From contig NZ_FNIA01000021.1 in NCBI RefSeq assembly GCF_900103505.1, forward strand, positions 1 to 54,808: DNA of 54,808 bases, read 5' to 3'. The notes below the pieces were generated by a model. The model did not search any database, had not been told where the DNA came from, and saw nothing but the letters and a program-made list of their open reading frames with translations. Shown here piece after piece: positions 15,226 to 50,874 of this stretch. Source of the DNA: Haloarchaeobius iranensis (GTDB taxonomy: Archaea; Halobacteriota; Halobacteria; Halobacteriales; Natrialbaceae). A program made the translations under genes and the position numbers. Every line of letters begins with the position of its first letter. Position 1 is the stretch's first letter.

Positions 15226-15301
15226 CGCCACCACGCCTCCCCGGGGACCACGAGTGAACCGTGAGCGTTCATGGCTACACTCACCCGCGACCCGACAATC
15301 A

Positions 15302-15324
15302 ATCTTGTGGCTCTAGTACAATAT
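15302..15324. promoter_or_regulatory. Candidate sulfur-regulon operator before the 54-residue gene
   Basis: ATCTTG-N11-CAATAT. The left half is identical to that of the 18505 site and the spacing is the same. It stands between the minus-strand small gene (15225) and the plus-strand USP gene (15472), so it could serve either. A lone CAATAC at 15437-15442, 30 nt before the USP ATG, has no partner half. Confidence 0.5.
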
Positions 15325-31983: not shown

Positions 31984-32263
31984 CGAGGGGCGAGGGCAGC
32001 CGGTCGGTTCTTGCGGCGACTGACCCCGCCGACGAGAACCATCCGACCACCGTAGCGGTGATAGTCGAGGGGGCCTGCGAGCTGAGCCGGAATCCGCTAC
32101 CGAGTGGCGTTTCGTTTGCACTGGAGAACGCCGACTTCCCCGGTTTCGGCCGGTTCTTCGGCAACGTCGCCTCTCCTGGCCGCGAACTGAAGGAAGTGTG
32201 ACTCGGAGAGCGTGCGATTGGGATGGCCCAGACTTCGACGAGGGTGTACAATCTAGATTTTCC
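31984..32263. other. Intergenic region between acr3 and the cobalamin operon
   Basis: No gene is supported. A start-less plus-strand frame stays open from the acr3 stop to a TGA at 32199-32201, but I recognise nothing in it. The last part holds the cbiT promoter. Confidence 0.4.
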
Positions 32264-32285
32264 TAAAACAACCATAATTGTTTTA
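32264..32285. promoter_or_regulatory. Candidate cobalamin-regulon operator before cbiT
   Basis: TAAAACAA-N6-TTGTTTTA, perfect 8-bp arms, spacer CCATAA, 26-47 nt upstream of the cbiT ATG. The core ACAA-N6-TTGT is found again before cbtB (42727) and the cbiX-like gene (50857), each time within 50 nt of a start codon. A regulator responding to cobalamin or cobalt is the natural candidate. Confidence 0.65.
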
Positions 32286-36481: not shown

Positions 36482-37558
36482 ATGAGCACCGACGACACCA
36501 CCACTGAGACGAGCACAGACACCGATACCGGCTGTGGCGCGAGCGAGGCTTCAGACGCTGCTGAAGATGCGACCGCCACCGAACCGGCTTCGAGATGCGG
36601 CGCTTCGAGCAACGAGTCCGAGTCCGACGGAGGCGTCACGAACGAAACCGGAGCGGCGTCAGACGCCGATGAGAGCACGTCGGCGTGTGGAGGGGCCACG
36701 TCGTCGTCCACTTCCGGCTGTGGTAGCTCGAAGGGGTCGACGACCGAGGAGACGGTCGGGTCGACCGTCGACGACTTCGAGGCAGACCCCGGCCGACTCG
36801 TCGCAGTTGGCCTGGGTCCCGGACAGCCGGAGGGGATGACCCAGCGTGCCCGCGGGGCGCTGCTCGACGCGGAGCATATCGTCGGGTACACTACCTACGT
36901 CGAACTCCTGCCGGAGGCGGTCAGGGAGTCGGCGGCGGAGCTGTACGACACGCCGATGTGTGGCGAGGTTTCCCGCACGGAGGAAGCGATCGACCGCACG
37001 CTCGCAGGGAACGACGTCGCCATCATCGGAAGCGGCGATCCGAACGTCTACGCGCTGGCCGGTCTGGCACTGGAGATACTCGAGTCGAAGGGCGCGACCG
37101 CGAGCATGGTCGACTTCGAGGTCGTCCCGGGCGTCCCCGCGGCCCAGTCCTGTGGCGCGCGGTTGGGCGCGCCGCTCGTGAACGACACGGTCAGTATCTC
37201 CCTGTCGGACCACCTGACGTCGATGCCGACCATCGAGTCCCGGCTCCACGCGGCAGCCAAGGAGGGCTTCACCATCGCCATCTACAACCCCTGGAGCCGC
37301 AAGCGCCGGGAGAACTTCCAGAAGTGCTGTGAGATACTGCTTGAGCACCGCGAACCGGAGACGCCCGTCGGAGTCGTCCACGGGGCGGGCCGGGACGACG
37401 AGGCGGTCGAGATCGTCGAACTCGGCGAGCTCGAGGAGCTCGGCGAGACGGACCTCATCGACATGACGACGACGATACTCGTCGGCAACGAGGAGACGTA
37501 CGTCTGGGACGACCGGATGGTGACGCCGCGGGGCTACGAGTCCAAGTATGACTACTGA
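36482..37558 (+). CDS. cbiH: CbiH C17-methyltransferase, paralogue 2, with Cys/Ser-rich N-terminal extension
   Basis: 358 residues. Residues from about 100 onward are a standard CbiH: RLVAVGLGPGQPEGMTQRARGALL, DAEHIVGYTTYVELL, IIGSGDPNVYALAGLA, VVPGVPAAQSCGARLGAPLV and FTIAIYNPWSRKR. The first 100 residues are low-complexity, rich in Ser, Thr, Glu and Asp, with cysteines spread in CGAS, CGAS, CGGA and CGSS repeats. Such a tail might bind cobalt or an Fe-S cluster or tether neighbours; nothing proves this. It overlaps the ferredoxin gene by 11 nt. Confidence 0.88.
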   Translation: MSTDDTTTETSTDTDTGCGASEASDAAEDATATEPASRCGASSNESESDGGVTNETGAASDADESTSACGGATSSSTSGCGSSKGSTTEETVGSTVDDFEADPGRLVAVGLGPGQPEGMTQRARGALLDAEHIVGYTTYVELLPEAVRESAAELYDTPMCGEVSRTEEAIDRTLAGNDVAIIGSGDPNVYALAGLALEILESKGATASMVDFEVVPGVPAAQSCGARLGAPLVNDTVSISLSDHLTSMPTIESRLHAAAKEGFTIAIYNPWSRKRRENFQKCCEILLEHREPETPVGVVHGAGRDDEAVEIVELGELEELGETDLIDMTTTILVGNEETYVWDDRMVTPRGYESKYDY

Positions 37559-37811
37559 GTATCAGGTGCGGCTCGACCGTAGCGCCTGTGACGGCGTCTT
37601 CGCCTGTCTCGTTCGAGACGACCGCTTCGTCGAGGATTCGGACGGGTTGGCGACCATCGACGCGGGCGACGACGGTCGTCATCGAGACCCCAACGCGAAC
37701 GGCGAAGAGCTCGTGACGTTCACCGACGAGCGGCTGCCGGCGGCCGAACAGGCGGCCCGTGCCTGCCCGGTCGACGCGATAGAGGTACTGGTGGAGGGTG
37801 ACGATGAGTGA
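37548..37811 (+). CDS. Small ferredoxin-like protein of the cobalamin operon
   Basis: 87 residues. Cysteines occur in SACDGVFACLVRDDRFVE (two, six apart) and in AARACPVDAIEV (one, followed by Pro). This is the layout of single-cluster ferredoxins that keep three ligands, suggesting a [3Fe-4S] or an incomplete [4Fe-4S] site. The middle is an acidic halophilic insert. It overlaps cbiH upstream and the next gene by 8 nt, so it is made with them. A role as reductant for a corrin reduction step (CbiJ is missing) is possible. Confidence 0.72.
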   Translation: MTTEYQVRLDRSACDGVFACLVRDDRFVEDSDGLATIDAGDDGRHRDPNANGEELVTFTDERLPAAEQAARACPVDAIEVLVEGDDE

Positions 37812-38520
37812 TGCGAACGGACGGTCCGCGACACCTGAGCCGGTCGAGGATCTGCTTGCCGCGACACCGGCCACGGCGTACTTCTGGGGACGCGTAGCCG
37901 GTGACGGCGAGCTGACCCAGGACTGCGTGACCGTTCGGACGGCAGACGAGACGTCGGCCGACGCGCTCGCGGCGGTCGCCGGCACCGGTCGGACGGACCA
38001 CGACCATCGAATCGCCGCCAGGGAGTCGGCACACGACGCCTCGATAGCCCGGTTCGAAGACGAGTACGAGCTACAGGTGTTCGGGATGCTGGCCGACCGC
38101 GCGAGTGCGGCGCTCGGCCTTCCCATCGACGGACAGCCCGGCGGATACCGCTTCGAGACGTTCTCGGAGTACCGACCACAGCTCGTCCGTGGCCTACTCG
38201 AGGCCTGTGGCACCGTCTGTTTCCGCGAGTCCGCGGGGTCGGTCGGCGTCTCGTTCGTCCACGACGACGAAGCGCTGCTTCGGACGGTTCAGTCGCTCGT
38301 CGACGCCGCCGAGCCCCACGTTCCGACCGAGGACCTCTCCGAGACATCCTCGGGCGGGTACTGGTTCGGGCTGGGCGACGATGCGGACACGGCGGCGTTC
38401 GCCCGGTGGGTGTACGCCGGCAGCGACGGGTCGGGACTGTACTCGGCGGAGCGGCGCCAGAAGCTCCAGCGGAGCGTCGAACGTGCGACGGGTAGCGAGG
38501 TGGGCGAACTCTCCCGATGA
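37804..38520 (+). CDS. Cobalamin-operon protein with degenerate LAGLIDADG-like repeats
   Basis: 238 residues; haloarchaeal homologues are known only as conserved cobalamin operon proteins. I see two LAGLIDADG-like segments: YFWGRVAGDGELTQD near residue 29, with an acidic residue in GDG, and LVRGLLEACGTVCFRES near 130, where the acidic position is Cys. The C-terminal YWFGLGDDADTAAFARWVY followed by SGLYSAERRQKLQR matches the tail of LAGLIDADG DNA-binding folds. With one catalytic acid lost and a fixed operon position, a domesticated DNA-binding or regulatory role, like that of bacterial WhiA, is more likely than endonuclease activity. The assignment is by pattern only. GTG 37798 is an alternative start. 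Confidence 0.6.
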   Translation: MSDANGRSATPEPVEDLLAATPATAYFWGRVAGDGELTQDCVTVRTADETSADALAAVAGTGRTDHDHRIAARESAHDASIARFEDEYELQVFGMLADRASAALGLPIDGQPGGYRFETFSEYRPQLVRGLLEACGTVCFRESAGSVGVSFVHDDEALLRTVQSLVDAAEPHVPTEDLSETSSGGYWFGLGDDADTAAFARWVYAGSDGSGLYSAERRQKLQRSVERATGSEVGELSR

Positions 38521-39743
38521 CCACGAACGCGAACGCGACCTCCATCGGGCTCGACGACGAAGCGGTGCTGCTGGTCGGTCACGGCTCTCGTCGCGAGAAG
38601 TCGAACGAACAGGTTCGCAGGCTCGCCGCCGACCTGGAAGGACGACTCGGGGTCCCGGTGGACGCCGGGTTCCTCGAACTCGCGAAGCCGTCGATTCCCG
38701 ACGCCATCGCGGGCCTCGCCGCGAGTGTCTCGCGCATCACCGTCGTCCAGCTATCGCTCTTTGCGGCCAGTCACGTCAAGAACGACGTGCCACTGGCAGT
38801 CCAGAACGCCCGCGCTGAACACCAGGAGGTCACCATCCACAACGGCGCACATCTCGGGGTCCATCCGGCACTCGTAGACCTCCTCGACGAACGGGCCGCG
38901 GCTGTGGAAGCGGAGCTCGGTATCGAACGTGACGAAGCGGACGTCGCGGTCGTCCTCTGTGCCCGTGGCTCCAGCGACCCGGACGCGAACAGTGACGCGC
39001 ACAAACTCGCCCGGTTACTGTACGAGGGCCGCGCCTTCGACCGTGTCGAAGCGTCGTTCATCGGGGTCACCGAGCCCCGGCTCGAGGAGACGCTACACAC
39101 AGTGGCGAAGAACCGTCCGGACGCCGTGGTTGTCCTCCCGTACATGCTCGGCGACGGCGTACTCACCGGCCGTATCCGCGACGGCGCCGCCGAGTTCGAC
39201 GACCGGTATCCGTACGTCGACGCGGGTGCGGGGGACCCGCTCGGGACCGACAGCCGGCTCCTGGACGTACTCGGTGACCGCTGGCAGGAAGCTCGGACCG
39301 ACAGCGTCGACATGTCCTGTGACACCTGCAAGTACAAGGTGGAACTCGACGGGTACGAGGAGGACGTCGGCGGCGCGAGAGCGATGCTCCGGGCGCTGAC
39401 CCACCAGGAATCCCACTCGGATCGTGACGACGTTTCCCCCCAGCCCCACGCGCACGACGCGCCGGAGAAACACGTGGCGGTCTGTACGAATCAGACCTGT
39501 GCCGCCGACGGTTCGCCGGCCGTTCTGGAACGGTTGCGACAGGCGGCCCGTGACTCGGACGCCTGTGACGCCCGAATCACGCGGTCGTCGTGTCTCGGGC
39601 GCTGTGGCGACGGCCCCATGGTCGCCGTCTATCCCGACGGTGTCTGGTACGGGGATGTCGACCGAGCCGACGCGGAGCGAATCGTCTCGTCCCACCTCGA
39701 CCGGGACCGTATCGTCTCGAATCTCGTCGACCAAACACTGTAA
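38517..39743 (+). CDS. cbiX: Long CbiX chelatase fused to a [2Fe-2S] ferredoxin domain
   Basis: 408 residues. Two CbiX-like halves (about 12-140 and 140-290): the first has LLVGHGSRREKSNEQ with the catalytic His, FLELAKPSIPDAI and LSLFAASHVKNDVP; the second has VLCARGSSDPDANSDAHKLA, with Arg in place of His. A linker with SCDTCKYKVEL and a His-rich stretch leads to a thioredoxin-like [2Fe-2S] domain (about 320-400): VAVCTNQTCAADGS and TRSSCLGRCGDGPMV. CbiX inserts Co2+ into sirohydrochlorin, the first step of the early-cobalt pathway. The Fe-S domain may be redox-sensing or regulatory. It overlaps the preceding gene by 4 nt. Confidence 0.88.
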   Translation: MTTNANATSIGLDDEAVLLVGHGSRREKSNEQVRRLAADLEGRLGVPVDAGFLELAKPSIPDAIAGLAASVSRITVVQLSLFAASHVKNDVPLAVQNARAEHQEVTIHNGAHLGVHPALVDLLDERAAAVEAELGIERDEADVAVVLCARGSSDPDANSDAHKLARLLYEGRAFDRVEASFIGVTEPRLEETLHTVAKNRPDAVVVLPYMLGDGVLTGRIRDGAAEFDDRYPYVDAGAGDPLGTDSRLLDVLGDRWQEARTDSVDMSCDTCKYKVELDGYEEDVGGARAMLRALTHQESHSDRDDVSPQPHAHDAPEKHVAVCTNQTCAADGSPAVLERLRQAARDSDACDARITRSSCLGRCGDGPMVAVYPDGVWYGDVDRADAERIVSSHLDRDRIVSNLVDQTL

Positions 39744-42726: not shown

Positions 42727-42740
42727 ACAAACCAGTTTGT
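42727..42740. promoter_or_regulatory. Candidate cobalamin-regulon operator before cbtB
   Basis: ACAAACCAGTTTGT, perfect 6-bp arms around CA, which is also ACAA-N6-TTGT. It lies 23-36 nt upstream of the cbtB ATG, a spacing similar to the cbiT site. Confidence 0.6.
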
Positions 42741-48817: not shown

Positions 48818-49202
48818 GGCCGTCGAGGAAATCGCTCGGAGCGTCGGTACCGGCGCTGGCCCGCTGCTCGAACAGTCCGAGTGCCGGCACGCCGAGGCCG
48901 TCGCCACGGCGATATACGAAGACGCGGAGCGCAGCAAGCGAGCGGAAGTCGAGGAAGCGCTGGGCAAACTCGACCCAGGCGGTGAGCGCAACGATGCTCA
49001 GCGCGATGTCATCGAGGGGATGGCCGACGCCATCGTCGAGCGGCTCCTGGCAGCACCGCTATCGTCTATCCGGAGAGGAGGCGACGAGCCCGCTCTCGAC
49101 ACCGTCGTTCGGCTGTTCGATATCGAAGTCGTGGAGGCGGACGACGACGGAATGGACGGGCGTAGGTCGCATCGAGAGGAGGTGACGGGCGTTGACAGCT
49201 GA
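48807..49202 (+). CDS. Small protein resembling the glutamyl-tRNA reductase dimerisation domain
   Basis: 131 residues. The helical stretch ERSKRAEVEEALGKLDPGG, NDAQRDVIEGMADAIVERLL and PLSSIRRGGDEPALDTVVRL with FDI looks like the C-terminal dimerisation domain of HemA (GluTR), including the spacing of the ERLL and P-x-S/T helices. No catalytic or NADPH-binding domain is present. It lies between cobN and cbiC, overlapping both by 11 nt. It could bind HemA and tune tetrapyrrole flow, or simply reuse the helical fold. Assignment by pattern. Confidence 0.65.
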   Translation: MTTEAVEEIARSVGTGAGPLLEQSECRHAEAVATAIYEDAERSKRAEVEEALGKLDPGGERNDAQRDVIEGMADAIVERLLAAPLSSIRRGGDEPALDTVVRLFDIEVVEADDDGMDGRRSHREEVTGVDS

Positions 49203-50684: not shown

Positions 50685-50856
50685 CTCAGAGAGATCCGGT
50701 CCCCTCCGAGTCTTCGTTCGTATCGCGGTCACCACCATCGACGAGCTTCCCGTCCATCATGTGTCACTCGCGCTACGCTCTCGCTGGACGAGCTCCGTGT
50801 CACCAAAACTTATTTCCCAGTCCGCATCGACCGGTTAGACAACCCAAATTGGGCTA

Positions 50857-50874
50857 GCACAAATATAATTGTGC
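50857..50874. promoter_or_regulatory. Candidate cobalamin-regulon operator before the cbiX-like gene
   Basis: GCACAA-N6-TTGTGC, perfect 6-bp arms with the AT-rich spacer ATATAA (possible TATA box), 14-31 nt upstream of the ATG at 50888. A second small palindrome, CCCAA-A-TTGGG, stands at 50843-50853. The core ACAA-N6-TTGT is shared with the cbiT and cbtB promoters. Confidence 0.62.

Follow-up and report, generated by a model that had tools for sequence, protein, structure and literature searches.

A domesticated, very probably non-catalytic LAGLIDADG protein belongs to the haloarchaeal de novo cobalamin module

The cobalamin (cbi) cluster of Haloarchaeobius iranensis carries, between a ferredoxin gene and cbiX, a gene for a protein of 238 residues, and the question we asked is what this protein is and what it may contribute to the making of vitamin B12. 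The stretch of DNA that was analysed, 54,808 nucleotides in length, is called the window here. By the cluster order published in PMC8305020, the ORF corresponds to HVO_B0055, which that paper lists with three other genes of the cluster as 'function unassigned'. These four were put forward as candidates for EC 2.1.1.195 and EC 1.3.1.106, the two steps of the haloarchaeal B12 pathway that have no known enzyme (PMC8305020). Public records name the gene either 'cobalamin biosynthesis protein' or 'hypothetical protein', and a literature search on the HVO_B0055 family found no description of a fold or function. The gene family itself was already known; the new information is the LAGLIDADG fold, which can now be given to one of the four unassigned genes.

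The operon runs in the order cbiT-cbiL-cbiF-cbiG-cbiH1-cbiH2-fdx-LAGLIDADG gene-cbiX-DUF3209-PQQ-type propeller, and the coordinates of the features are collected in the table. On the opposite strand after the propeller gene lie genes for a [2Fe-2S]-type ferredoxin, CbtA, CbtB and chlID, and after chlID come cobN, a GlutR_dimer protein, cbiC, a further methylase (CbiE-like by its place), a second CbiX and a CbiA-like protein; cluster genes without a profile scan of their own were named by the gene order in PMC8305020. The ORF shares 8 bp with the ferredoxin ORF before it and 4 bp with cbiX after it, and an alternative in-frame GTG start at 37798 would add two residues. The initial annotation had described a fixed place in an overlapping operon, and this was borne out in the 80 named loci, where cbiX directly follows the gene in 80/80 and a ferredoxin gene precedes it in 76/80. 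The window gene thus shares its slot in the cobalamin cluster with the HVO_B0055 family. An Rfam search of the whole window returned no family at threshold.

Table. Features of the LAGLIDADG-fold gene and its surroundings in the window
Feature	Coordinates	Strand	Basis and remarks
Gene of the domesticated LAGLIDADG-fold protein, 238 aa	37804..38520	+	ORF and translation; AlphaFold2; PDB fold search
Motif 1, GRVAGDGELT, residues 29-38	37888..37917	+	Sequence; Asp34 (37903-37905) is the former catalytic acid
Motif 2, GLLEACGTVC, residues 130-139	38191..38220	+	Sequence; GLLEACGTV is residues 130-138
Conserved repeat-1 hairpin RESAHDASIAR, residues 73-83, with invariant His77	38020..38052	+	Alignment and model
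Fer4_15 ferredoxin, encoded directly upstream; conserved Cys14, Cys20 and Cys73	37548..37811	+	Pfam; Cys counts in 79 sequences
Long CbiX, encoded directly downstream; MXCXXC motif, [2Fe-2S]-like domain at the C-terminus	38517..39743	+	Pfam; gene order
ACAA-N6-TTGT site before cbiT	32268..32281		Degenerate copy 20 bp upstream, 32248-32261

As a separate observation, in nearly all of the 79 sequences compared the ferredoxin of the operon conserves no more than three Cys (C-x5-C ... CP), and this is the pattern of [3Fe-4S]-type ferredoxins.

The two LAGLIDADG-like motifs that had been noticed in the gene were found at the coordinates and with the residues described. Sequence searches with the window protein alone against Pfam, NCBIfam and the PDB gave nothing usable (no Pfam match), and a PDB profile search built from 25 orthologues missed the LAGLIDADG fold. 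Among its relatives, at least the proteins of loci L005 (24.8 bits) and L070 (23.6 bits) scored above the 22.5-bit gathering cut-off of PF14528 (LAGLIDADG_3), so the curated profile is passed by these relatives and not by the window protein itself; 17 of the 63 family members matched PF14528 at E <= 0.01. Profile-profile alignment against 12 haloarchaeal intein LAGLIDADG domains gave, at motif 2, only a weak match to an intein motif (probability 8%, E 0.0043, one pair), which is not counted as evidence for the fold. A loose pattern for the motif pair was present in 38/39 family ORFs and in 4/814 other acidic ORFs of the same loci, and as the pattern had been designed around the family, these counts are a rough control only.

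The fold itself was seen in the predicted structures. With an alignment of 63 sequences, AlphaFold2 gave a complete two-repeat LAGLIDADG monomer (pLDDT 86.5, pTM 0.86), made up of H22-34, E36-38, E41-46, H49-59, E66-74, E82-93 and H96-104 in repeat 1, and H117-135, E136-141, E146-153, H156-167, E186-190, H196-203 and H215-229 in repeat 2. The RESAHDASIAR hairpin joins strands E66-74 and E82-93. A distant Haloferax orthologue whose motif 1 has no acid (GHVAGGGRV) was predicted with the same fold (pLDDT 91.3, pTM 0.89). The alpha-beta-beta-alpha-beta-beta-alpha repeat, on whose presence the initial annotation had staked its proposal, thus occurs twice per monomer in the models of both orthologues, with the LAGLIDADG helices at the interface.

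When the window model was searched against the PDB using Foldseek, the best matches included I-Tsp061I (E 4.6e-7) and WhiA (1.8e-5) as well as intein endonucleases and I-DmoI; each of the first 33 matches was a LAGLIDADG protein, WhiA included. The 50 VIA-align matches listed were likewise all LAGLIDADG proteins, WhiA among them, and included PI-PfuI (Z 15.0, 180 residues, 3.0 A), I-Tsp061I (Z 14.9, 179 residues, 2.9 A), I-DmoI (Z 14.7, 168 residues, 3.0 A) and WhiA 8dy7 (Z 13.7, 186 residues, 3.9 A). The Haloferax model matched I-DmoI with Z 15.8 and WhiA with Z 14.7. These searches, together with the predicted repeats, upheld the suggestion of a homing endonuclease fold. I-DmoI, I-Tsp061I and PI-PfuI are the closest solved folds (Z 14.7-15.8) and, like the protein studied here, have two repeats in one chain; the PF14528 profile passed by some of its orthologues is a further likeness. 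Unlike these endonucleases, the family has lost the catalytic acids, lies outside introns and inteins, and is kept vertically beside cbiX.

We examined the old active site in an alignment of the 63 members. The replacement of the metal-binding acid of motif 2 by Cys, already pointed out in the initial annotation, is a stable feature of the family (Cys135, 38206-38208, in 62/63). The GDG acid of motif 1 fared differently under the same check: it is present in the window protein, but D is found in only 46/63 members, the others having S, N, G or E. The Asp/Glu that ends each LAGLIDADG motif in active endonucleases is therefore not preserved in the family, and the gene is a free-standing ORF at a fixed place before cbiX rather than a mobile element in an intron, an intein or a sporadic location. 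The protein is very unlikely to cut DNA, since the motif-2 acid is almost always Cys and the motif-1 acid drifts.

Cys139 (38218-38220) and His77 are each found in 63/63 members, and the other invariant residues include Trp28, Arg116, Arg129, Glu133, Ser150, Tyr204, Arg217 and Lys220. Some of these conserved features, namely Arg129-Gly130 and the basic helix at the C-terminus, occur widely among LAGLIDADG proteins, while His77, Cys135 and Cys139 look particular to the HVO_B0055 family. Values of dN/dS against four relatives were 0.14-0.20, and on this sequence evidence the ORF is a host gene under purifying selection. That we are dealing with a domesticated LAGLIDADG fold that has lost its catalysis is nearly certain.

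Domesticated LAGLIDADG proteins are already known, namely WhiA, and HO in yeast. HO is also a homing-type LAGLIDADG protein taken over by its host (PMC7282813), and it is a working endonuclease, whereas the protein of the cbi cluster is without the acids. What is new is an archaeal variant that is tied to vitamin B12, has thiols at the old active site and has no helix-turn-helix (HTH), an architecture distinct from that of WhiA.

We further estimated how closely the gene is inherited with the cbi genes. Among 391 Halobacteria genomes, the LAGLIDADG family was found in 204, CbiG in 210 and both in 202, the shared count being tallied by hand from the two lists; the gene is thus present in 202/210 sampled genomes with CbiG and in 2/181 without. 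In a 294-genome sample of the phylum, all 24 positives belonged to the same taxonomic order, and within that sample no relatives were seen beyond Halobacteria. Together with the conserved locus, these counts place the protein firmly in the module with which haloarchaea make cobalamin de novo.

In the genus of the window, the LAGLIDADG gene and CbiG were seen in only two of six genomes, and the nearest CbiG in the tree is 91% identical and comes from Halobellus, a member of another family. These findings suggest that the cbi cluster (32278-53351 in the window) was transferred horizontally. The cluster is plasmid-borne in several genomes.

Eight genomes have CbiG and no LAGLIDADG gene: G045, G047, G063, G286, G335, G334, G373 and G017. 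The first five have a minimal compact cluster, which consists of cbiT, L, F, G, H1, H2 and a gene for a short CbiX; ferredoxin, DUF3209 and propeller genes are missing. In G334 and G373, the surroundings of CbiG are without ferredoxin, DUF3209, propeller and cbiX, and a short CbiX is found elsewhere in the genome. DUF3209 was missing or below cut-off in all seven of these genomes, and their CbiGs fall outside the gene-bearing clade of the CbiG tree, in which some long branches leave the number of events unsure. The seven represent mainly a separate, old cbi lineage spread over four host families. In G017, the CbiG is nested among those of gene-bearing clusters, and the absence of the gene there is a secondary loss. 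The slot between the ferredoxin gene and the long cbiX is occupied in G017 by a further CbiX, which is short and has a His-rich tail (L145: 9706-10587).

Two lineages of haloarchaeal cbi clusters can be seen in these data (L145-L150, L189, L190). The extended one has the ferredoxin, the LAGLIDADG protein, a long CbiX, DUF3209 and the propeller; the minimal one, found in at least four host families, has none of these extras and a short CbiX.

The gene was also found unlinked to the cluster in two genomes. In G046 the module is scattered, with cbiT-L-F-G-H1-H2-fdx-propeller on one contig and the long cbiX-DUF3209 on another; the orthologue (34% identity) is on a third contig (L170: 7448-10508), in an apparent operon of the order CDF-LAGLIDADG gene-rhodanese-CDF, where CDF denotes cation-efflux genes. 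In G333, an intact stand-alone orthologue is present (L169: 8497-9315) and CbiG was not found; its dN/dS against a relative in G069, a related genome with only a partial cbiG match, is 0.15. His77, Cys135 and Cys139 are kept in both unlinked copies.

The eight CbiG genomes without the gene suggest that ring formation can do without this protein as an enzyme and that its task is linked to the kind of cobaltochelatase present. We consider the most economical reading to be a small accessory protein, of a metal, thiol or redox kind, for cobalt insertion or its redox protection, and we hold this tentatively, at somewhat less than an even chance. According to this reading, the old active-site cleft would have been rebuilt with Cys135 and Cys139 (a Cys-x3-Cys in repeat 2), perhaps joined by the His77 loop of repeat 1. 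The ligand of this putative site may be cobalt, a corrinoid intermediate, or a partner of the Fe-S or thiol kind, and it could then be handed on or guarded with the long, Fe-S-bearing CbiX and the three-Cys ferredoxin as presumed partners.

We favour an accessory role because the gene is co-inherited with CbiG and is always followed by cbiX in the named loci, and because near-invariant thiols occupy the former catalytic position. It is also favoured because the seven gene-lacking genomes other than G017 have a short CbiX, no DUF3209 above cut-off, and no ferredoxin or propeller in their clusters, while in G017 a short His-rich CbiX fills the slot of the gene. The G046 copy points the same way, since it sits among CDF and rhodanese genes with the Cys and His residues retained. 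A last reason comes from bacteria, where the C-terminal part of CbiX-L has a 4Fe-4S centre and a His-rich region that was proposed to serve in metal storage or delivery (PMC7689651). Against it, the CDF context is that of one genome at 34% identity, G333 keeps the gene with no CbiG found, and in one locus (L081) the gene lies beside a shortened CbiX with no DUF3209.

A further-reaching proposal is that the LAGLIDADG saddle has switched from DNA cleavage to cofactor biosynthesis, with a putative Cys/His site, where the active site used to be, that would hold cobalt, a corrin intermediate or an Fe-S partner. We regard this as possible and rather doubtful; if true, it would be, to our knowledge, the first LAGLIDADG protein without a nucleic-acid role.

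Operon location alone does not separate an accessory protein from a regulator, and the initial annotation had compared the protein to WhiA and had made it a candidate for recognising the repeat ACAA-N6-TTGT. As for the repeat, the window was enriched for it, since four sites were found against 0.07 expected, and the 3.77-Mb genome had 13 against 8 for a reversed control. The four sites (15295-15308, 32248-32281, 42727-42740 and 50839-50872) lie before cbiT, cbtB and the second cbiX, with one upstream of a universal-stress-protein (Usp) gene; those before cbiT and the second cbiX each have a degenerate copy exactly 20 bp upstream. Within 250 bp upstream of cbiT, the site was present in 61/63 gene-bearing loci (51 exact, 10 with one mismatch; a control pattern gave 0 exact and 3 with one mismatch), with the consensus ACAACCAAAATTGT. 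It is a real conserved site before the cbi operon.

The same place in genomes without the LAGLIDADG gene carried an exact site in G047, G063, G334 and G373, and a one-mismatch site in G045, G286, G335 and G017. Since the site is equally present there, its reader must be another protein, at least in those genomes. In G046, exact sites were found at cbiT and cbiX and none in the 19 kb around the unlinked gene. As the site persists in all eight cbi genomes without the gene, as the G046 gene has no site near it, and as a WhiA-type HTH is absent, we infer that the LAGLIDADG-fold protein is not the reader of ACAA-N6-TTGT, and it can now be separated from the conserved site before the cbi operon. Across haloarchaea, the sites look like a cobalt/B12 regulon (61/63 loci at cbiT).

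A WhiA-like regulator of cobalt/B12 genes, in which the saddle still binds DNA, would act at a different site or together with another regulator, with the ferredoxin perhaps as redox-sensing partner in the way of WhiB for WhiA. WhiA (DUF199) has the same fold over 164-186 residues (Z 11.8-14.7, with about 11-17% identity in the structural alignments) and is among the closest solved structures of both models. It shares with the family the degenerate LAGLIDADG domain, N-terminal in WhiA, the loss of catalytic residues, the status of a fixed host gene, and a probable partner or neighbour of the Fe-S kind: WhiA relies on WhiB, an Fe-S protein (PMC6282962), and the LAGLIDADG gene adjoins an Fe-S protein gene. 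A second activator of cob/cbi genes has been inferred in Halobacterium (PMC3794607), and the position of the G046 copy between two CDF genes would also suit a metal sensor.

The comparison with WhiA stood as regards a domesticated homing endonuclease with a matching fold and lost acids, and failed at the C-terminal HTH. No HTH was detected by Pfam in the window protein, and the LAGLIDADG alignment spans residues 14-238 of a chain that ends at 238. In WhiA, specific DNA binding is the work of the C-terminal HTH (PMC3781837), and the LAGLIDADG domain alone gave no footprint (PMC3781837; PMC6282962). The family also differs from WhiA in being archaeal, linked to B12 and furnished with Cys at the active-site position. 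The DNA-facing strand regions are more acidic than those of haloarchaeal intein domains (mean net charge -7.1, against -3.1 in ten such domains), a modest hint that may speak against DNA binding. With the HTH absent, the strands acidic and the conserved site kept in cbi genomes that lack the gene, we think a regulator of this kind unlikely.

An enzyme for one of the two gaps, either a ferredoxin-fed reduction of cobalt-precorrin-6A (EC 1.3.1.106) or the C1 methylation (EC 2.1.1.195), is the role that PMC8305020 suggested for the unassigned four. By the models used here both gaps are genuine, since CbiD was found in 0/391 and CbiJ above cut-off in 0/391 Halobacteria genomes, and the gene both tracks CbiG and adjoins a ferredoxin gene. 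However, the eight genomes discussed above have the ring-forming genes and lack it, five of them with compact clusters. Neither the protein nor its relatives showed a SAM-, NAD(P)H- or flavin-binding family or a match to PF01888 (CbiD) or PF02571 (CbiJ), and CbiH1, also retained by the minimal clusters, makes a stronger candidate for the methylase. We know of no LAGLIDADG enzyme of the reductase or methylase kind, and we consider this role improbable.

That the gene is a decaying homing endonuclease or intein remnant, in the operon by chance and with no host function, is highly improbable: the protein does fold like the intron and intein endonucleases of archaea, and these genomes contain many PF14528 domains, but the low dN/dS, the residues invariant over many genera, the single conserved location with co-inheritance of the cbi genes, and a phage search with insignificant matches only all stand against it. 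A recent selfish element was likewise rejected by synteny, dN/dS and the phage search.

Elsewhere in the cluster, between cobN and cbiC, the window encodes a free-standing protein of 127 aa (48819-49202) whose only match is to PF00745, the dimerisation domain of glutamyl-tRNA reductase.
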